A stretch of 64,000 nt of DNA from Myxococcota bacterium (GCA_963169045.1 CAUJDF010000069.1:1-64000), one strand, 5' to 3'; counted from the first letter of the stretch, positions 40,653 to 56,000 are shown. Numbers and translations: made by a program. The notes: generated by a model not told the origin, from the sequence alone.

Positions 40653-42287
40653 TCAGTACGCGCAGCCGAAGACGACGTCGACGTCGGCCACGCCATCTTC
40701 GCGAAGTCGTGTACAGGCGGAACCGAAGAACGTCACGGAGTTGTTCGCGGCGTTGTAGTCCCACCCCTCTTCGTGCTGCGGATCGCGGGGGACGCGCTCC
40801 CGATCGTCGAAGAACACGGCCAGCTCCAAGGGGTTGGGCGGCACCGCGTCGAGCCGGTACTCGCAGCTCGCGAGGAGGCCGGCGATGTCCCGCAGCGCTG
40901 CGAGGAGGGCCGGCGCGTCGTCGGCCTGATGGTATCGGGGCTCGCCGGGGCGGGGGACGCCGCCGGCGACGGCGAAGCGGGCGAGATCCGCGGGGCTCAC
41001 CTCGCCGCCGAAGCCCACCACGTACGTGGACACGCCGCGCTGCTCGTGGAGCGCGCGCAGCGCCCGCTCGGTGCCGGCGTCTCCGCCGTCGGCGGCGCAG
41101 GCCGACTGGCGTCCGTCGGTGACGAGCATCAGGTAGTGGGGCCGGGCCGGGTCGTCGAGCGCCGGGTCGAGCGCGGCCCGGGTCACACCCGAGTCGATGT
41201 TCGTGACGCACGGGCCGTCGGGCCAGTTCGGATCGGCGTCGTCGAGCGCGGCGCGCAAGAGGTCGGTGACGCGCGGTCCGTTGCCCTCGCCGAGCGGGAT
41301 CGCCGTCTCGTTCTGCCGGCACTCGTTGCCGATCCGGTCGGGGAACAGGACGAGGCCGAAGCGCAGCCGGTCCCCGAAGTCGCGGGTGATGGCGGTGATG
41401 GCGTCGACGGCGGCCTGCCACTTGCGCACGCCGCCCACGCGGGCGCGCATCGAGCAGGACCGGTCGAGCACGAGCATCAGGTCGGGTCGGACGCGCGTGG
41501 CGGCGAACGCCTGGCCGCCGCAGGGGCTGCCCGGCACGCACGCGCCGGCGTCGTCGCAGACGTGCTCGGCAGGGCAGTCGGCGCCGTCGGCACAGCGACC
41601 CTCGGGCAGGCAGCGCCCGGCGCGGCTGCAGAAGGTGCCCGCCGCGCAGTCGCCCACGTCGCGCGCGCCGTCGTTGCAGTCGAGCGCGCCGTCGACGTGG
41701 CCGGCCGGCGCCTCGCAGGCGTAGGTCACGGCCCCGGGGTCCCCCTCGCCGTCGCCGTCGCCGTCACGGAAGAACGCGCGGGCGTCGGCGGCGCCGTTGT
41801 CGGCCGTCCCGTCGCAGTCGTCGTCGCGGCCGTTGCAGCGCTCGGCGGCCTGGGGGCCCACGGTGGGATCGGCGTCGTCGCAGTCGCCGGGCTCGGCCAC
41901 GTGGCCGGGGAGCGGCGCGCAGACGTCGACCGCGCGGGCCGGGTCGCCAGCGCCGTCGCCGTCGCCGTCGGCGAAGTAGCGGAGCGGATCGGCGCAGCCG
42001 GGCGCCGCCGCGTCGGCGGCGGGCGCGGCGTCGGCCGCGCTGACGCCCACGTCGGGGGGCGGGCTCGACGCCGCGGCGTCCGCGGCGTCCACTGCGTCGG
42101 TGGGGACGGCGGCGTCGAGCCGCGTCGGATCCGGAGGTTCGCCCGCGTCGGCGCCCTCGACGCCGGAGGGCCCGCCGTCGCGCGACGGCCCCGCAGCGTC
42201 GTTCGCCGTGCAGCCGGCGACGAGCAACGCGGCGGCCAGCATGCCGGCCTGGTGGCGAGTGGCGATGGGGTGTTTCGAGCCGTTCAT
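40653..42287 (-). CDS. VWA-domain lipoprotein with MopE-like motifs
   Basis: The product has 544 residues. A long signal with lipobox (ALLVAGC) is followed by an Asp/Ala-rich linker and two or three MopE-like acidic motifs (CDDADPTVG, CNGRDDDCDG). A small Cys-rich module lies near 205-255. The von Willebrand A domain (about 265-480) has the MIDAS residues in LVLDRSCSM and VTDG. This would be a calcium- or metal-dependent adhesion protein on the cell surface. ATG 42287 overlaps the PHP gene stop by 4 bp, so the two lipoproteins are made together. Confidence 0.85.
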   Translation of the reverse strand: MNGSKHPIATRHQAGMLAAALLVAGCTANDAAGPSRDGGPSGVEGADAGEPPDPTRLDAAVPTDAVDAADAAASSPPPDVGVSAADAAPAADAAAPGCADPLRYFADGDGDGAGDPARAVDVCAPLPGHVAEPGDCDDADPTVGPQAAERCNGRDDDCDGTADNGAADARAFFRDGDGDGEGDPGAVTYACEAPAGHVDGALDCNDGARDVGDCAAGTFCSRAGRCLPEGRCADGADCPAEHVCDDAGACVPGSPCGGQAFAATRVRPDLMLVLDRSCSMRARVGGVRKWQAAVDAITAITRDFGDRLRFGLVLFPDRIGNECRQNETAIPLGEGNGPRVTDLLRAALDDADPNWPDGPCVTNIDSGVTRAALDPALDDPARPHYLMLVTDGRQSACAADGGDAGTERALRALHEQRGVSTYVVGFGGEVSPADLARFAVAGGVPRPGEPRYHQADDAPALLAALRDIAGLLASCEYRLDAVPPNPLELAVFFDDRERVPRDPQHEEGWDYNAANNSVTFFGSACTRLREDGVADVDVVFGCAY

Positions 42288-43804
42288 CGCAAGTAGATGG
42301 GGTTGCTGTAAATCCAGATGAGCTTCGTAATCAAGCGATCCGCGAAATCACCGAGCTCGGGCCGAAAATGCTCAGGGGTCACGCGGACTTCGACACGGTA
42401 GACGCCGGCCGCGGACGCCTCGTGCTCGAGGCGATCCCCGGCGCTCTCGGCGACGATCTCGACCCCCTCGGCGGTGACCCGCTTGAGGGCCACCTCGATG
42501 GCGTCGCCGCCGGGCGCGGCGGGGGGGACGACGACGAGGCGCGTGCCGGGAACGAACGGCCGCTCGGCGCCCATCTCGAGGGTCTCGCCGTCGGGCGTGA
42601 CCGCGTGGAAATCGAAGCCGTCGGGCGCCCCGAGCAGGTCGAAGGCCACGAAGAGGCGCCCGCCCTCGAGCGCGTCGCGCACGCCGGCGTAGTCGACGCG
42701 CCGGACGAGCAGGTAGTTGGCGAACCACGACGACAGGCGGCGGTAGCTGTCGATGCGGTCGCCGTCGGCGGGCCGCACGAGGGCCGTGTTCTCGTGGATG
42801 TCGGAGCCGGCGGTGCCCAGCATGCGCCGGTGCGGCGTCACGCCGTCCCAGGCGGTGAGCGCGAGCGGGTTCTCGCGCAGGATGCCGAGGAACCACAGGT
42901 CGGGGTGCGTCCCCCGGGCGCCGGCACCGGCGAGCGCGCTGAGCAGGCGCAGGAACTGCTGCAGCTGCTGCAGCTCGCCGTTGGGCGCGAGGTTCGCGTG
43001 CAGGTTGTAGATCTCGACGCCGTCGACGCCCATGGCGAGGACCTCGTCGGCAGTGAAGCGCTCGGTGTGCGCCTGCAGCAGGAAACCGCCGGCGAGCCGC
43101 AGGCGCTCCGCCGCCTCGGGGCTCGTGCTGCGGTAGGCGCCGAGGTCGTCCGGGTGCCTGCGCAGCATCACCGGCACGAGGTCGCCCTCGGAGCCGGCGC
43201 TCACCAACACCTCGTGGCCGCCGGGGCAGACGACGCGGTTGGCGATCGGCGCCTCGCCGTCGCGCTCGAGGCGGTCGCCCTCCCGATGCAGCAGCGCGTC
43301 CAGGAAGGGGATCTCGTCGAGGTGCGTCGGGTGGTCGGTCAGCAGCAGGTAGTCGAGGCCGACCTCGCAGATGGCGGTCCGCAGGCGATCGAGGCAGGGC
43401 GCGTTGACCTGGCCGTCGATGCGCGGGCGGCCGTCGCACGCGTCGTGGCTGTGCGCCGAGTGCATGTGGATCAGGCCTCGGGCGAACCGCCAGTCGCGGG
43501 GCGCCCGCAGCTGGGCCGCGGGGGTGGGCAGCGGGCGCCGACCGAAGGCCGGGCCGGGTGCGGCGTCGGGGGGCGCCGCGTCCGGGGGCAGGGCGTCGGG
43601 CGCGTCGGCCGCGTCGGGCGCGCGCGCGTCGGGCCCTGCCGCGTCGGCCGTCTCCGCGTCGGGCGCGCGGGCGTCGAGCCCCGCCGCGTCGACCGACACC
43701 TGCGCGTCGCCCGCCGGCGCAGCGCCCTCGTCCTTTCCGTCACCCGAGCACCCCGCGACGGCCATACACAGGACCGCCGCGACGACGCCGCCGCTCCACC
43801 GCAT
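42284..43804 (-). CDS. PHP-domain lipoprotein
   Basis: The product has 506 residues. The lipobox CMAVAGC gives Cys 19, followed by about 65 residues of Asp/Ala/Pro linker. The PHP metal-dependent phosphoesterase domain begins at about 110 with GLIHMHSAHSHDAC and continues with LLLTDHPTH, LLQAHTERF and GSDIHEN, so the metal-binding His/Asp set looks complete. Secreted PHP proteins of this kind are common in myxobacteria and uncharacterised. GGGGAGG lies before ATG 43804. It is coupled to the VWA lipoprotein downstream. Confidence 0.85.
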   Translation of the reverse strand: MRWSGGVVAAVLCMAVAGCSGDGKDEGAAPAGDAQVSVDAAGLDARAPDAETADAAGPDARAPDAADAPDALPPDAAPPDAAPGPAFGRRPLPTPAAQLRAPRDWRFARGLIHMHSAHSHDACDGRPRIDGQVNAPCLDRLRTAICEVGLDYLLLTDHPTHLDEIPFLDALLHREGDRLERDGEAPIANRVVCPGGHEVLVSAGSEGDLVPVMLRRHPDDLGAYRSTSPEAAERLRLAGGFLLQAHTERFTADEVLAMGVDGVEIYNLHANLAPNGELQQLQQFLRLLSALAGAGARGTHPDLWFLGILRENPLALTAWDGVTPHRRMLGTAGSDIHENTALVRPADGDRIDSYRRLSSWFANYLLVRRVDYAGVRDALEGGRLFVAFDLLGAPDGFDFHAVTPDGETLEMGAERPFVPGTRLVVVPPAAPGGDAIEVALKRVTAEGVEIVAESAGDRLEHEASAAGVYRVEVRVTPEHFRPELGDFADRLITKLIWIYSNPIYLR

Positions 43805-48236: not shown

Positions 48237-49406
48237 ATGACGCCGATCCGCCGCGAAGACCTCGAGGCGCTCACGACCCCGGAACGCACATCCTGCCTGT
48301 CGCTCTACGCGCCCATGGTCCAGGCCGGGCCGCAGACGCGGCAGAACGTCATTCGCTTCCGCAACCTCGTGCGCCGCGCCGACGAGATGCTCGCCGAGCG
48401 CGACATGCGGCCGCTCGAGCGCGAGCGGTTCCTCGAGCCGCTGGCGACGCTCGCGGCCGACGAGGACTTCTGGCTGCACCAGCTCGAGGGCCTGGCGGTC
48501 TTCCGCGCCGCCGACCGCTTCGTCCACTACCGCCTGCCGACACCCTGCGAGGAGCTCGTGACGCTCGGGCGGCGCTTCCACGTGACGCGCCTGATCGACG
48601 AGCTCAACCGGGACGGGAGCTTCCGGCTGCTCGCGCTGTCGCACGACGACGTGCGCCTGTACGAGTGCAACCGGCGGGGGCTGTACCGCCGCGTGCTGCC
48701 GCCCGACGTGCCGACGAGCATCACTCAGGCGCTCGGGCCGACGCGGCCGAGCCCGGCCGACTATCAGCACGCCAACTACGCCCAGCCCGGCGACCACCGG
48801 CCCGGCGCGGGCGGCAGCTTCTACCACGGCCAGTCCTACGGCGACGCCGACCCCAAGCAGGAGTTGCGTAAGTTCTTCTCGATGTTCGACGAGGGCGTCT
48901 TCGCCGCCGTCGAGGACAAGGACGTGCCGGTGGTGCTGGCGGGCGTCGAGTACGTCGTGAGCCTGTACCGCGACGTGTCGAAGCTGCCGAACGTGGTCGA
49001 GGCGGCGATCTACGGTCACCCGACCGATCTCGGCGAGCAGGCGCTCTACGAGAAGGCGTGGGCGATCATGGCGCCGTGGCTGGCGCGCGCCGCCGAGCGG
49101 GCGAAGGAGCGCTGGCACGTGCGGGCCGAGCGCGGTCGGGCCTCGAAGGACCTCAAGGACGTGCTGATCGCCGCCGGCGAGGGGCGGATCGACACGCTGC
49201 TCGTGGCGCGGGACGCGCACGCCTGGGGGTCGTTCGACTTCGACCACCGAAAGTTGGCGGTCGACGGCGGCCCGACGCCGCAGAACGAGGACCTGCTCGA
49301 CCTGGCCGCGGTCAACACCTGGCGGAGGCGGGGCGCCGTCTACTCGGTGGATCCGGCGCTGCTGCCCGATCCCGCCTGCCCCATCGCCGCGCTCTATCGG
49401 TACTGA
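48237..49406 (+). CDS. baeRF family protein (bacterial eRF1-like)
   Basis: This 389-residue protein belongs to the bacterial archaeo-eukaryotic release-factor-like (baeRF) families. The N-terminal section has TSCLSLYAPM at residues 18-27. The C-terminal eRF1-domain-3-like part has GRIDTLLVARDAHAWGSFD, EDLLDLAAVNTW and a closing PIAALYRY. These proteins are predicted to bind ribosomes in hibernation, rescue or RNA quality control. AGGAG about nine bases upstream supports ATG 48237. The winged-helix gene starts 23 bp downstream and is probably its partner. Confidence 0.82.
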   Translation: MTPIRREDLEALTTPERTSCLSLYAPMVQAGPQTRQNVIRFRNLVRRADEMLAERDMRPLERERFLEPLATLAADEDFWLHQLEGLAVFRAADRFVHYRLPTPCEELVTLGRRFHVTRLIDELNRDGSFRLLALSHDDVRLYECNRRGLYRRVLPPDVPTSITQALGPTRPSPADYQHANYAQPGDHRPGAGGSFYHGQSYGDADPKQELRKFFSMFDEGVFAAVEDKDVPVVLAGVEYVVSLYRDVSKLPNVVEAAIYGHPTDLGEQALYEKAWAIMAPWLARAAERAKERWHVRAERGRASKDLKDVLIAAGEGRIDTLLVARDAHAWGSFDFDHRKLAVDGGPTPQNEDLLDLAAVNTWRRRGAVYSVDPALLPDPACPIAALYRY

Positions 49407-50716: not shown

Positions 50717-51742
50717 ATGGCCCCGCGACGGGGAGGGTCGCCGCCGCGTTCACCCGCGACGGCGGTCGGGGAGCGTCCGACGGCGAGGGAACTCCTCTTG
50801 CACGTTGGGCGCGGCGTGACGCGTCCTCACCTGCCCCCGGTGCCGGCCGTCGTGGCGATCCACCTCGCCGGCACCGCCGCGACCATGGGCCTTCGCGTGG
50901 AGCACTTCGCCGGGAACGCGCTGCTCCTGGGCCTGTGGGCGGGCGGCGGGCGGGCGAGGCGCCTCGCGACGTTGATGTTCCCGTTCTGGGTCACCGCGGT
51001 GGTCTATGACGCGTTCCGCTTCCTCGAGCCGCTGCGCGCGCCGGTGCGCGTCGCCGGGCCCTATCTCGTGGAGCGGGCCTGGTTCGGCGTCGGGACGCCC
51101 GCCGAGGTGCCCGCCATCGCGTGGCAGGCGGCGCCCGCCCCCGGGCTCGACCTGGTCTGCGGCCTCGCCTACATCCTGTACCTCCTGCAGCCGCTGGCCC
51201 TCGCCGCGTACCTGTTCGTCCGGGGACACCACGGGCGCGTGCGGTGGCTCGCGTGGAGCTTCCTCGCGGTGAACGTGGCGGGCCTGGTCACGCACCTGCT
51301 CTACCCGGTCGCGCCGCCGTGGTACGTGGCGCGCTACGGCCTCGAGTACGTGGGGCCGGTGCCCCCCGAGGCGGCGGGCGCGGCGCGTTTCGACGCGCTG
51401 ACCGGCACCGGCTGGTTCGCGGCATGGTACGCGCGCAGCCCGGACGTTTTCGGCGCCCTGCCGTCGCTGCACGCCGCGTATCCCGTGTTGTGCCTGGGCG
51501 CGACCTGGGGCCTCGGCGCGCGCTGGCGCGTCGGCGGCGCGGCCTTCGCGCTGCTCGTCGGCGCCGCCGCCGTCTACCTCGGCCACCACTACGTCATCGA
51601 CGTGCTCGCCGGCTGGGCGTACGCCGCCGTCGCGCTCGCGGGCGTGGCCGCCCTCGTCCGCGCGCCGGCCTTCCACGCGCGCCCCGGTCACTTCGGAGAG
51701 GACGCCGCCCGGGGGCGTCCCGCGGAAGGGGAGTCCGCATGA
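50717..51742 (+). CDS. PAP2-superfamily protein, AUR1/IPC-synthase-like
   Basis: This 341-residue membrane protein has six or so helices. It has the lipid-phosphatase/phosphotransferase motifs in the PAP2_3 form: PSLHAAYP near residue 255 and GHHYVIDVLAGW near 295, which supply the two catalytic His and the Asp. A YPVAPPWY segment precedes them. This form is that of the inositol-phosphoceramide synthases (AUR1) and bacterial relatives. The start is uncertain (ATG 50717, or GTG 50714 one codon earlier). It overlaps the CDP-alcohol phosphotransferase gene by ATGA. The head group it transfers is inferred, not seen. Confidence 0.85.
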   Translation: MAPRRGGSPPRSPATAVGERPTARELLLHVGRGVTRPHLPPVPAVVAIHLAGTAATMGLRVEHFAGNALLLGLWAGGGRARRLATLMFPFWVTAVVYDAFRFLEPLRAPVRVAGPYLVERAWFGVGTPAEVPAIAWQAAPAPGLDLVCGLAYILYLLQPLALAAYLFVRGHHGRVRWLAWSFLAVNVAGLVTHLLYPVAPPWYVARYGLEYVGPVPPEAAGAARFDALTGTGWFAAWYARSPDVFGALPSLHAAYPVLCLGATWGLGARWRVGGAAFALLVGAAAVYLGHHYVIDVLAGWAYAAVALAGVAALVRAPAFHARPGHFGEDAARGRPAEGESA

Positions 51743-52956
51743 TGGAGACGTTCGGGCAGTGGCTGCACGGCGATCTCGGCACGGCGGCCCGCATCGGCAC
51801 CGCGCTGGCGCCGGCGGCGCTGTTCCTGCTGTGGTTCTTCGGCGGCCTCGTGCCCTATGCGCTGCACCAGCGCCGGCACGGACGCCACCACGACGCCGAC
51901 CTCGAGTCGCGGGGCGACAGCGTCCTGCTCGGCATGCGCCTGCGGGTGTATTTCGGGTGGCTGATGCGGCCGGTCTGGTCGGTGCTGCAGCGCTCCGGCC
52001 TGCCGGCGAGCGCGATCACCGCCGGATCGCTGTTGTTCTCGCTCGCCGCCGCCGTGGCGCTGGCCAGCGGGCGATTCGCGCTCGGCGGCTGGCTGTACAT
52101 CCTGGCGGGGATCGGCGACTTCCTCGACGGTCGCGTCGCCCGCGCCCGCGGCGAGGCCGGGCCGCGCGGGGCGGCGCTCGACTCCATCCTCGACCGCTAC
52201 AGCGACACCGTCGTGCTCGTCGGCCTCGCCTGGTACTACCGCGGCTCGTGGGTGCTCGTGGCGGTCCTGGCGACGCTCGTGGGCTCGATGCTGGTGTCGT
52301 ACGTGCGGGCGCGCGGCGAGGGGCTCGGCATCAAGATCCGATCGGGGCTGATGCAGCGGCCGGAGCGCATCTTCGTGTTGGGATCGACGGTGGCGCTGAG
52401 CCCGGCGCTGGCGGCGGTCCTGGAGCCCACCGATCCCACGCCGATCCACTGGCTGGCGGTGGCCGGCCTGACGTTCCTGGCGGTGACCACGCAGATCACC
52501 GCGATGCGGCGCTTCTTCGACCTGCTGCACGCGCTCGACACCACACACCCCGCGCGCCGGTCGGCGGTCCTTCACGCCGGCGTGGCCTCGCTCGTGGCGA
52601 CGGCGGTCGACTTCCTCGTCGTGTGGCTGCTCGTGACGCGCGGCGCCCTGCCGCCGTGGCTGGCGACGGCGGTGGGATGCGCGGCGGGCGCCGCGCTGGC
52701 CTGGGTCGGGACGCGGCGCGACGCGCCGACGCCGTGGCGCTTCGTGTTGCTCAACATCGTCGGGGCGCTGCTCAACGCCGGCGGCGTGGCGGTGGTGATG
52801 CTGCTGCCGGACGTCGACTGGCGCGTGGCGTGGCTCGCGACGCGCGTCGTCGTGTTCGGCGCGTGGAACCTGCCGCTCCACCGCGAGTACCTCTTCGGCG
52901 ACCTCGAGCCCGGCGCCCGCGACGCGCGCGTCGCCGCACCCGGGCCGTCGCGATGA
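51739..52956 (+). CDS. CDP-alcohol phosphatidyltransferase fused to a GtrA-like domain
   Basis: This 405-residue protein has the complete CDP-alcohol phosphotransferase signature near residues 125-150: DFLDGRVARARG, GAALDSILD, with the four metal-binding Asp. It would join a CDP-lipid to an alcohol such as inositol phosphate or glycerol phosphate. From about residue 275 a second, four-helix domain of GtrA type begins (LVATAVDFLVVWLLV, then WNLPLHREYLF). GtrA proteins are linked to lipid-carrier or phospholipid translocation. The fusion is unusual to me. ATG 51739 has GGGGAG upstream and overlaps the PAP2 stop. Its stop overlaps the pgpA start by ATGA. Confidence 0.9.
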   Translation: MMETFGQWLHGDLGTAARIGTALAPAALFLLWFFGGLVPYALHQRRHGRHHDADLESRGDSVLLGMRLRVYFGWLMRPVWSVLQRSGLPASAITAGSLLFSLAAAVALASGRFALGGWLYILAGIGDFLDGRVARARGEAGPRGAALDSILDRYSDTVVLVGLAWYYRGSWVLVAVLATLVGSMLVSYVRARGEGLGIKIRSGLMQRPERIFVLGSTVALSPALAAVLEPTDPTPIHWLAVAGLTFLAVTTQITAMRRFFDLLHALDTTHPARRSAVLHAGVASLVATAVDFLVVWLLVTRGALPPWLATAVGCAAGAALAWVGTRRDAPTPWRFVLLNIVGALLNAGGVAVVMLLPDVDWRVAWLATRVVVFGAWNLPLHREYLFGDLEPGARDARVAAPGPSR

Positions 52957-53429
52957 GGGCGGCCGGGGCGGTGGCGGCGGGGCGTGAGCCCTGGCGCTTC
53001 GTGGCGACGGTGGGCTACGCCGGCCTGTCGCCGGTGGCGCCGGGCACGATGGGCGCGCTGGTGGCGCTCCTGGCGGGGCTGGGGCTGTTCGCGCTGCCGT
53101 GGCAGGTCTGGATCCCCCTGCTGGCGTCGCTCACCTTCGCCTCGATCCCGATCGTCGACCGCTACCTGCGCGGTGGCGACCTGCACGACCCGCAGGAGGT
53201 CGTGCTCGACGAGTTCGTCGGCTGCCTCCTCGCGATGGCGCTCGTGCCGGCGACCCTGCCGTGGCAGCTCGCCGCCTTCGGCCTCTTCCGCGTGTTGGAC
53301 GTCTACAAGCCCGGCCCCATCCGCCTGCTCGAGCGCCTGCCGGGCGGCGCGGGCGTCATCCTCGACGACGTGGCCGCCGGCATCGTGGCGGGCGCTCTGC
53401 TGGCCGCGCTGGGTCCGTTCCTCCCCTGA
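52953..53429 (+). CDS. pgpA: Phosphatidylglycerophosphatase A family protein
   Basis: This 158-residue membrane protein has the PgpA landmarks VGYAGLSPVAPGTMG near the N-terminus, VLDEFVG at about residue 88, and YKPGPIRLLERLPGG. The family removes the terminal phosphate from phosphatidylglycerol phosphate and, in inositol-lipid clusters, probably from phosphatidylinositol phosphate. ATG 52953 overlaps the previous stop. Together with the two upstream genes it completes a phospholipid head-group route: transfer, dephosphorylation, and head-group exchange. Which lipid is made cannot be settled from the window. Confidence 0.92.
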   Translation: MRAAGAVAAGREPWRFVATVGYAGLSPVAPGTMGALVALLAGLGLFALPWQVWIPLLASLTFASIPIVDRYLRGGDLHDPQEVVLDEFVGCLLAMALVPATLPWQLAAFGLFRVLDVYKPGPIRLLERLPGGAGVILDDVAAGIVAGALLAALGPFLP

Positions 53430-53430
53430 A

Positions 53431-53460
53431 TTCTCGATATCGGGCTGCAAATCCTCTAAT
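53431..53460 (+). promoter_or_regulatory. Weak candidate promoter in an AT-rich island
   Basis: TCTAAT (53455-53460) matches the -10 consensus at five of six bases, with TTCTCG (53431-53436) 18 bp upstream as a poor -35. The 50 bp around it are about 43 % GC, against about 75 % nearby, which is the main support. Transcription would begin almost at the first codons of the barrel protein. Confidence 0.3.
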
Positions 53461-53469
53461 TGTTTCAGA

Positions 53470-54555
53470 ATCTTCACCCCGATCGCCCATCAGGCCGCGC
53501 TCGCGTGGCTGCTCGCCGCCACGGCGCCTGCTCCGGCAGCGGCGCCGCCGGCCCGCCTCGCGCCGCCGGCGGCCGAGGGCGGGCTCGTCGGCGCGCCCTA
53601 CGTCTTCTACTCGCCGGAGACGCAGCTCGGCGGCGGGGTGGGCGGCCTCTGGTACGGCGAGCCGGCCGAGGGCGCGTTCGGGCTGATGAAGGCGTCGGTC
53701 CGCTACACGCAGAACGACCAGGTCATGGCCTCGGTGGCGCCGGAGCTCGAGCTCGGCGACGTGCGCCTGAAGCTCAAGCTGGGCTTCGAGCGCTTTCCCG
53801 ACCGCTACTTCGGCCTGGGCGCCCGGGCGCCGGCCTCCGCCGAGGAGGGCTTCACCCCCGTCGTGTGGACGGCGAAGGGCGAGGGCGAATACCGGCTCGC
53901 CGGCGACGTGTTCGTGGGGGGAGACCTGGAGGTCAGACACGTCCGGATCGCCGACAGCGAGGCCGGCGGCCTCGTCGAGGGGGCGCCGGGCGCACGGGGC
54001 GGGCTCGCCCTGGGGCTCGGCGCGCACGTCAGCCTCGACACCCGGGACGCCCCGCGCGGGACGCGGTCCGGCGGCCTCCTGCGCCTCTCGGCCATGCACT
54101 TCGAAGGCGCGCTCGGTGCGGATCGCTTCGAGCGCTTCACCCTGGACGCCCGACGCTTCGTGCCGCTCTTCGGCGAGCACGTGCTGGCCCTGCGGGGGCT
54201 CGCCGAGGTCCACCAGGGCGACGTCCCGTTCCACCAGATGTCCATGCTCGGCGGCGGCGACCTGCTGCGCGGGCTCTACCGCGGCCGCTACCGCGACCGT
54301 CACCTCGCGACGGCCCAGGCCGAGTACCGCATGCCCCTGTTCTGGCGCCTCGGGCTCGCCGGCTTCGTCGAGGCGGGGACGGTCGCCCACGAGATCACCG
54401 ACCTGGCCGTGCCGGGGCTCGACGCGGTCAAGCTCGGCGGCGGCCTGGGGCTGCGCTTCCTCGTGAACGCCGAGAAGCGGCTGGCCTGCCGACTCGATGT
54501 CGGCCGCTCCGAGGGACACACCCAGTTCTACTTCACCTTCGACGAGGCGTTTTGA
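53470..54555 (+). CDS. Outer-membrane beta-barrel protein (BamA/TamA family, POTRA-less), start unresolved
   Basis: The frame encodes about 360 residues. A hydrophobic signal-like stretch (ALAWLLAATAPAPA) is followed by a barrel of the Omp85 surface-antigen type: VFYSPETQLGGG, VRLKLKLGFERFPDRYFGLG, SLDTRDAPRGTRSGG, GGGDLLRGLYRGR. It ends with the aromatic beta-signal (FTFDEAF). No POTRA repeats are present. No ATG, GTG or TTG lies in frame between the pgpA stop and the barrel, so the given start (an ATC) is only a marker. The gene may use a rare start, have lost its 5' end, or contain a sequence error. The next gene overlaps its stop by TTGA. Confidence 0.7.
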   Translation: MFTPIAHQAALAWLLAATAPAPAAAPPARLAPPAAEGGLVGAPYVFYSPETQLGGGVGGLWYGEPAEGAFGLMKASVRYTQNDQVMASVAPELELGDVRLKLKLGFERFPDRYFGLGARAPASAEEGFTPVVWTAKGEGEYRLAGDVFVGGDLEVRHVRIADSEAGGLVEGAPGARGGLALGLGAHVSLDTRDAPRGTRSGGLLRLSAMHFEGALGADRFERFTLDARRFVPLFGEHVLALRGLAEVHQGDVPFHQMSMLGGGDLLRGLYRGRYRDRHLATAQAEYRMPLFWRLGLAGFVEAGTVAHEITDLAVPGLDAVKLGGGLGLRFLVNAEKRLACRLDVGRSEGHTQFYFTFDEAF

Positions 54556-56000
54556 AGCCGATCCTCCGTCTCTTGCCGCTGCTGCTCGCCCTGCTGGCCG
54601 GCTGCCGCCGCCACGCCGAGCTCCCGCTCGACGCCGAGGGCGCGCGGCAGTGCGCGCCCATCGAGGACGGCGGCGTGCCGCTCGACTGCGCGCGCTTCCG
54701 CGCCACGCACAACTCGTACTCGACCACCGTCGACCGTTCGCTCGCGGCGCAGCTCGACGACGGGGTGCGCTTCCTCGAGCTGGACGTGCACGACGAGGAC
54801 TTCCGCGGCAAGGGCGACTTCGAGGTGGGGCACGCGCTGCCGGGCTGGGAGCTGCGGAGGGGTGGCGGCAACCCCGACTCCGACCGCCTCGGCGAGTGGC
54901 TGCGCGTGGTGGCGGCGTGGTCCGCGGCGCACCCGGGGCACGCGCCGGTCACGGTGGCCCTCGACCTCAAGGACGACCTCACCGACAACGCCGACGCATC
55001 GCGCGGCGATCCCGGGGCGCTGAACGCGCAGTTGCGCGCCGTCTTCGGCGAGAAGCTGTTCACGCCGGAGGCGCTCGAGGCCGCGGGGGGCGAGTGGCCC
55101 ACCGTCGACGCGCTGCGGGGGCGCATCCTGGTGGTGCTCTCCGGCGACGTCGGCACGCGGCTCGACTACCGGCGACGGACGGCGGCCTCGCCGGCGGTCG
55201 CGCTCGCGGCGGACGGCCGCGCGGTCGCCGTCTTCGAGGGGCCGCACGGCTGGCTGTGGGCCTGGACGGGCCACCGCCGTGCCGACGGCACGTTCGCCTG
55301 GACGCACCGCGCCCGCTACGCGCGCGGCCGCGCGCCCGCCGTCGCGATCGGCGCCGGCGGCGAGGTGGTCGTCGTGCACGCCTCGGGCGTGGACGCCGGG
55401 CTGTGGTACCGCGCGGGCCGGCTCGGCCCCGACGGCATCGCCTGGGCCGGCAGCGGCCGCTACGACGAGGGCGACGCGCCCACCGTCCGGTTCGAGGGGC
55501 CGGGGCGCCTGGTCGGGCTGCACCGCGATCCGTCGGGGCAGGGGAACCGCATCGTCCGCGGCACGCTCGGCGCGGCGGGGGTGGCGTGGTCGGCGCCGCT
55601 GCGCACGTGGCGCGCGCGTCACGACAAGGCGACGGACCGCGTCGCCGGCCGCTTCCTCCGCGTCTCCGTGGGGCCCGACGCCTCCATGCCCGCGGAGACG
55701 CTGCGCTACTCGTCCGACGCCGTGCCGGACGCGCGCCTGCGCTTCGATCAGCTCGCCTTCGTCGAGCTGCAGCCCGGCGATCCGCCCGAGCTCGCCGACG
55801 ATGGGCTGCGGCATGCGGCGGCGCCGAGCGGGGACCGCGCGTTCGCCACGGACCAGCTCGCCGCCGGGCGCATCGTGCGGTGGTGGGGGTTCGACGATGG
55901 GGCGGTGTCGGCGGGCGTGCCGGTGCACCTGCCGGCGACGGATCGGCCGCTGGCGCGGTGGTATCGGGCGTTCGCGGACAAGATCCGCGCCGAGGAGTAG
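54552..56000 (+). CDS. PI-PLC-like (SaPLC1-type) lipoprotein with WTG repeats
   Basis: The product has 482 residues. TTG 54552 overlaps the barrel gene stop and has GAGG five bases upstream; the lipobox is LLALLAGC (Cys 17). A calcium-type PI-PLC X domain spans about 35-210, with catalytic His in RATHNSYS and VGHALPG and metal ligands in LELDVHDED and VALDLKDDL. The middle, about 215-385, has repeats such as WAWTGHRRADGTFAWTH and WYRAGRLGPDGIAWAG, like a small beta-propeller. It should cleave or bind a phosphoinositide-type lipid at the surface, which fits its place in a lipid operon. The catalytic set has not been checked by alignment. Confidence 0.82.
   Translation: MKPILRLLPLLLALLAGCRRHAELPLDAEGARQCAPIEDGGVPLDCARFRATHNSYSTTVDRSLAAQLDDGVRFLELDVHDEDFRGKGDFEVGHALPGWELRRGGGNPDSDRLGEWLRVVAAWSAAHPGHAPVTVALDLKDDLTDNADASRGDPGALNAQLRAVFGEKLFTPEALEAAGGEWPTVDALRGRILVVLSGDVGTRLDYRRRTAASPAVALAADGRAVAVFEGPHGWLWAWTGHRRADGTFAWTHRARYARGRAPAVAIGAGGEVVVVHASGVDAGLWYRAGRLGPDGIAWAGSGRYDEGDAPTVRFEGPGRLVGLHRDPSGQGNRIVRGTLGAAGVAWSAPLRTWRARHDKATDRVAGRFLRVSVGPDASMPAETLRYSSDAVPDARLRFDQLAFVELQPGDPPELADDGLRHAAAPSGDRAFATDQLAAGRIVRWWGFDDGAVSAGVPVHLPATDRPLARWYRAFADKIRAEE

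Follow-up and report, generated by a model that had tools for sequence, protein, structure and literature searches.

A probable inositol-lipid operon of myxobacterial type with a phosphatidylinositol-phosphate synthase fused to GtrA

Genes of the operon

Five reading frames occupy the + strand at positions 50717-56000 of a 64,000-nt stretch of DNA from a Myxococcota bacterium (GCA_963169045.1 CAUJDF010000069.1:1-64000; hereafter the window, whose positions serve as coordinates). The first three, at 50717-53429, probably constitute an inositol-lipid operon of myxobacterial type, with the two genes behind them, for an outer-membrane barrel and a lipoprotein resembling phosphatidylinositol-specific phospholipase C (PI-PLC), separate from it. 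A preliminary description of the region had named the five families, the overlaps between the genes and the activities that the first three share with an inositol-lipid cluster of Bacteroides; the reading frames, the sequence and matches to Pfam, NCBIfam and solved structures bear these points out. The operon opens with the gene for an AUR1-like PAP2 transferase resembling inositol phosphorylceramide (IPC) synthase (P0001, 50717-51742, starting at ATG 50717 or GTG 50714), continues with a fusion of phosphatidylinositol-phosphate (PIP) synthase (PIPS) and GtrA (P0004, 51739-52956) and closes with a PgpA-type phosphatase (P0005, 52953-53429). The fusion gene starts within the stop of the AUR1-like gene at an ATGA (51739-51742), and at a second ATGA (52953-52956) the start of pgpA overlaps the stop of the fusion gene.

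The fusion protein comprises a PIPS domain at residues 67-263 (Pfam CDP-OH_P_transf, 2e-13) and a GtrA membrane domain at residues 284-384 (Pfam GtrA, 1.6e-5; 25.5 bits for this single sequence, slightly below the Pfam cut-off of 26.1). It carries the PIPS motif DFLDGRVARARGEAGPRGAALDSILD, and the CDP-alcohol signature D-x2-DG-x2-AR-...-G-x3-D-x3-D is complete. Among NCBIfam families, the PIPS domain matches archaetidylinositol-phosphate synthase (1.4e-38), PIPSynth (5.5e-31) and the BT1523-type PIPS (2.7e-30), compared with 1.5e-4 for pgsA, and its closest solved relatives by sequence are the PIP synthases 6h53 (6e-17), 6wm5 and 5d92. When an AlphaFold model built from 38 sequences (pLDDT 89.6) was compared with known folds, 14 PIPS chains ranked first, with E-values of 9e-8 to 3e-5, and PgsA 7drj followed at 2e-2. 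The assignment of this CDP-alcohol enzyme as a PIP synthase, and not PgsA, is well supported.

The AUR1-like protein matches Pfam PAP2_3 (1.1e-20) and the NCBIfam phosphoinositol dihydroceramide synthase family (NF052609, 1.6e-46), and a profile of 25 of its relatives aligns with fungal AUR1 9vj3 over almost the full length (1.8e-38). The top two fold matches of its model are the AUR1 structures 9vj4 and 9ivc (4e-8 and 1e-7), all remaining matches lying above 0.1, and its invariant residues include H252 (PSLH), H290/H291 and D295 (HHYxxD). By sequence and predicted fold, its identity as an AUR1-like phosphoinositol transferase is well supported, at a score under the equivalog cut-off. P0005 matches Pfam PgpA at 1.2e-36 and, by analogy with BT1525 of Bacteroides thetaiotaomicron, is a candidate PIP phosphatase.

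These families also invite a more ordinary explanation, a phosphatidylglycerol pathway of PgsA-type synthase, PgpA and PAP2 phosphatase, since many bacteria use PgpA and PAP2 proteins in that pathway and the CDP-alcohol motif is shared. We regard it as extremely unlikely. In sequence E-value the PIPS families are ahead of PgsA by over 20 orders of magnitude, and the comparison of folds gives a lead of about five; the matches of the PAP2 protein are to AUR1 and not to PgpB, and relatives carry a gene for myo-inositol-phosphate synthase (MIPS) in the operon. With sequence families and fold both favouring PIPS, the PgsA reading was rejected. The preliminary description had proposed a structure-based comparison of the PAP2 and CDP-alcohol enzymes and had named grouping with PgsA as the outcome that would tell against an inositol lipid; AUR1 and PIP synthases proved to be the best matches.

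Spread of the fusion, and the neighbouring barrel and PI-PLC-like genes

Relatives of the operon were sought in 96 related genomes, in 379 genomes of the phylum and in 84,980 species genomes. Nine of the 96 hold a cluster with a separate PIPS, in which MIPS, AUR1, GtrA, PgpA and an HpnN-like MMPL transporter recur. Another 11 genomes of the phylum, including four from the same family, have the PIPS-GtrA fusion at full length. The species scan returned 80 loci with the synthase, 55 of which encode both domains in one reading frame, including those of Myxococcus xanthus, Corallococcus, Pyxidicoccus and Polyangium. Most fused loci read MIPS-AUR1-PIPS.GtrA, with MIPS and AUR1 directly upstream of the fusion, often an MMPL gene and sometimes pgpA nearby, and in many of them the AUR1 gene overlaps the start of the fusion gene. 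In the literature searched, which was incomplete, we came upon no account of either the myxobacterial operon or the fusion.

Individual loci depart from this pattern. MMPL and PgpA are fused at L169 10234-13152 and L173 4451-7315, in same-family genomes that have PIPS.GtrA and no AUR1, and at L054 8742-11320 pgpA is flanked by two AUR1-like genes in one cluster. Records titled Comamonas (L228), Candidatus Dadabacteria (L218) and Rhizobiales (L273) also carry the myxobacterial synthase and are possibly mislabelled or contaminated.

In the window, no overlap joins pgpA to the barrel gene. The roughly 60 bases between them (53430-53490) have 46% G+C versus 75% for the window; the AT-richness here, at 53413-53490, is matched at just one other place in the 64 kb (42271-42351). 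The inositol operon probably ends at this gap, which may also hold the promoter of the barrel gene; a promoter and terminator scan of it returned no sigma-70-type promoter and no terminator. The barrel (P0002, 53482-54555) matches Pfam Omp85 (2.2e-10; 41 bits, cut-off 24). No POTRA domain is matched in it by Pfam or NCBIfam, and there is little space ahead of the barrel; it is at most an Omp85 protein of the 'noNterm' type. Its frame has no ATG, GTG or TTG near the signal peptide (53430-53510), only ATA, ATC and CTG, or GTGs deep within pgpA, which points to either an assembly error or an unusual start codon. The gap, this start-codon anomaly and the PIPS-GtrA fusion had all been overlooked in the preliminary description.

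The barrel gene in turn overlaps the PI-PLC-like gene at a TTGA (54552-54555). The latter (P0003, 54552-56000) starts with TTG and encodes a lipoprotein with the lipobox LLAGC and a Pfam PI-PLC-C1 domain (8.1e-11; 42 bits, cut-off 29.9). Residues H53, N54, E76, D78 and H94 are invariant among six homologues, and both catalytic histidines, which the preliminary description had singled out, are kept, H53/H94 aligning with those of 3h4w and 5fyo. The protein is probably active, judging by these residues. A repeat-like insert, GRAVAVFEGPHGWLWAW..., interrupts the domain at 55164-55660 (P0003 residues ~205-370) and is found in close homologues only. A search of viral contigs with this protein gave one weak match.

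The preliminary description had joined all five genes in one system, in which an inositol lipid is made, the barrel moves it through the outer membrane and the PI-PLC-like lipoprotein cleaves it at the surface. The single strand and tight spacing, the intact PI-PLC active site, a substrate made by the adjoining genes and the pairing of a lipoprotein signal with an outer-membrane barrel all fit such a system. However, the five-gene order, expected to be conserved in related genomes, was found in no other genome searched. In the 379 phylum genomes, comparison of contigs and positions placed barrel homologues in 25 other genomes and full-length PI-PLC homologues in four (G003, G010 with two copies, G014 and G258), never together and never beside the cluster; three of the four, G003, G010 and G014, have no AUR1 cluster at all. 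Nor was either gene near the synthase at any of the 80 loci, at least 5 kb downstream being covered in 45 of the 55 fused ones. The AT-rich gap ahead of the barrel gene is a further point against the five-gene system, which we consider quite improbable and rejected as unsupported, the barrel and PI-PLC genes never accompanying the cluster in the genomes searched. Because of this lack of co-location and the gap, we treat the two as probably a separate two-gene unit that lies beside the operon in this genome only, among those searched.

Two observations on surrounding genes may be added. In G010 and G003, two genes of ~400 and ~315 codons precede the PI-PLC-like gene (L061 5787-9540 and L062 6841-10699), and Pfam assigned no family to these preceding genes where tested. 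Outside the operon, the product encoded at 48237-49406 of the window belongs to the bacterial archaeo-eukaryotic release-factor-like family (baeRF 3/6/7).

Inositol and ceramide supply, and a proposed pathway

The preliminary description had asked whether inositol synthesis genes exist elsewhere in the genome, and two MIPS genes do, on contigs C94 and C44, neither within the operon. The MIPS on C94 is close to that of the cluster type. Its gene overlaps one for a nucleotidyltransferase/CDP-alcohol fusion resembling IPCT-DIPPS (L058, G000:C94, 8701-11531), and this pair may, judging from its sequence, represent a second inositol route of CDP-inositol type in the same genome.

Ceramide supply is another matter. 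The only enzyme of the serine palmitoyltransferase (SPT) superfamily found in the genome is a glycine C-acetyltransferase (Kbl; 680 bits, cut-off 460), whose gene adjoins a threonine dehydrogenase-like gene (tdh), and a search with an SPT-like protein from myxobacteria retrieved this Kbl gene alone. Because the genome is 95.4% complete, the absence of SPT is likely but not proven. A distinct SPT-like enzyme occurs in Polyangium-type genomes that carry AUR1, and the same-family genomes G002 and G004 have Kbl only and no AUR1 match. With no SPT found, ceramide is a doubtful acceptor and we do not class the locus as a sphingolipid pathway; of the inositol phospho- or sphingolipid originally proposed, the inositol-lipid operon stands and the sphingolipid part is weakened.

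The missing SPT also raises the possibility that the operon yields phosphatidylinositol (PI) only in this strain, ceramide not being made and the AUR1-like enzyme being a relic or a hydrolase. Consistent with this, all four same-family genomes with the fusion have no AUR1 match, and both of those with complete genes show Kbl-type enzymes only. Yet the AUR1 catalytic residues are all kept, the AUR1 gene leads the operon and its overlap into the PIPS gene suggests use, and ~5% of the genome may be missing. We consider a PI-only operon doubtful, though a realistic possibility.

We favour instead a complete inositol-lipid operon. The analysis shows what the genes are, which active-site residues they keep, their folds, the structure of the operon and the conservation of the fusion; from these we infer its reactions, a transport step by GtrA and an acceptor as follows. 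Inositol phosphate would come from MIPS encoded elsewhere; the PIPS domain would join it to CDP-diacylglycerol to give PIP-DAG; and PgpA would remove the phosphate to give PI. The fused GtrA domain may then carry PI across the inner membrane, where a periplasmic AUR1-like enzyme would move phosphoinositol from PI onto a lipid acceptor, presumably ceramide in relatives with SPT.

The transport step is based on three things: the fusion itself, the annotation of GtrA as a putative lipid-linked sugar flippase (PMC7775120) and the phenotype of a Bacteroides mutant. In B. thetaiotaomicron, BT1522 is AUR1-like, BT1523 is PIPS, BT1524 is GtrA, BT1525 is a PgpA-like PIP phosphatase and BT1526 is MIPS (PMC9246714, PMC8791184). 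The BT1524 mutant of Sartorio et al. has less IPC and more PI (PMC8791184), which fits PI failing to reach the IPC synthase. If GtrA hands PI over to AUR1 across the membrane, as the fusion suggests, the phenotype of this mutant would be accounted for.

Several points weigh against the operon as we read it. First, the NCBIfam scores lie under the curated equivalog cut-offs (159 bits versus 480 for the AUR1-like protein and 107.8 versus 170 for PIPS), so the exact substrates of the two enzymes are not assured. Second, a BT1524 knockout made by a second group, Heaver et al., showed no lipid change by thin-layer chromatography (PMC9246714), which either counts against the GtrA step or reflects a coarser method. 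Third, MIPS lies outside the operon, making the locus a variant of the BT-type cluster, and the window lacks the MMPL transporter that relatives usually have, the nearest homologue being 28% identical and on another contig. Fourth, no SPT was found in the superfamily search. Finally, the single strand throughout and the TTGA inside the barrel and PI-PLC pair make a read-through transcript possible. We nonetheless consider an operon of myxobacterial type, with the barrel and PI-PLC genes separate, the probable reading.

What makes the locus valuable is the fusion, its myxobacterial spread and the missing SPT. On the role of GtrA in the inositol-lipid cluster of Bacteroides, the mutants of two groups differ (PMC8791184, PMC9246714). 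The conserved joining of PIPS to GtrA in myxobacteria, among them the tractable M. xanthus, ties GtrA directly to PI synthesis and opens its proposed flippase role to experiment, and the MMPL lipid transporter that recurs in these operons may act in a later export step. The presence of an AUR1-like enzyme where no SPT is detectable also raises the question of its acceptor. It is a speculative and rather unlikely thought that GtrA is a dedicated PI flippase joined to the PI-making enzyme and that the AUR1-like enzyme, without SPT, uses a non-sphingoid acceptor, which would amount to an undescribed class of bacterial inositol lipid.

Comparison with known systems

The two neighbouring genes have known counterparts. 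The barrel resembles the Omp85 'noNterm' proteins (PMC4104836), both being Omp85-family barrels without a POTRA domain. The PI-PLC-like protein shares H53/H94, N54/E76/D78 and the surrounding domain with Ca2+-dependent PI-PLC of the PF16670 type (3h4w, 5fyo), but is a lipoprotein with a ~165-residue insert.

Within the operon, fungal AUR1 IPC synthase (9vj4, 9ivc) is a near full-length profile match and the best fold match of the AUR1-like protein and has the PAP2 triad in common with it, although identity is ~22% and no SPT was found in the window genome. The mycobacterial PIP synthase PgsA1 (6h53, 6h59) and the PIPS of R. salmoninarum (5d92) are the best structural matches of the synthase and share its fold and CDP-alcohol motif, but have neither a GtrA domain nor an AUR1 partner.

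The window has the same activities as BT1522-BT1526 in the same order (AUR1-like, PIPS, GtrA, PgpA-type); it differs in that the equivalents of BT1523 and BT1524 are joined in one protein, MIPS is elsewhere, no SPT was found and the phylum is another. The myxobacterial MIPS-AUR1-PIPS.GtrA(-MMPL-PgpA) operons, in a group whose member M. xanthus is cited as a maker of ceramide phosphoryl-myo-inositol (PMC9246714), carry the same fusion at ~44-53% identity, many with the same AUR1 overlap at its start; the window operon has no MIPS or MMPL gene, and its pgpA stands directly behind the fusion.

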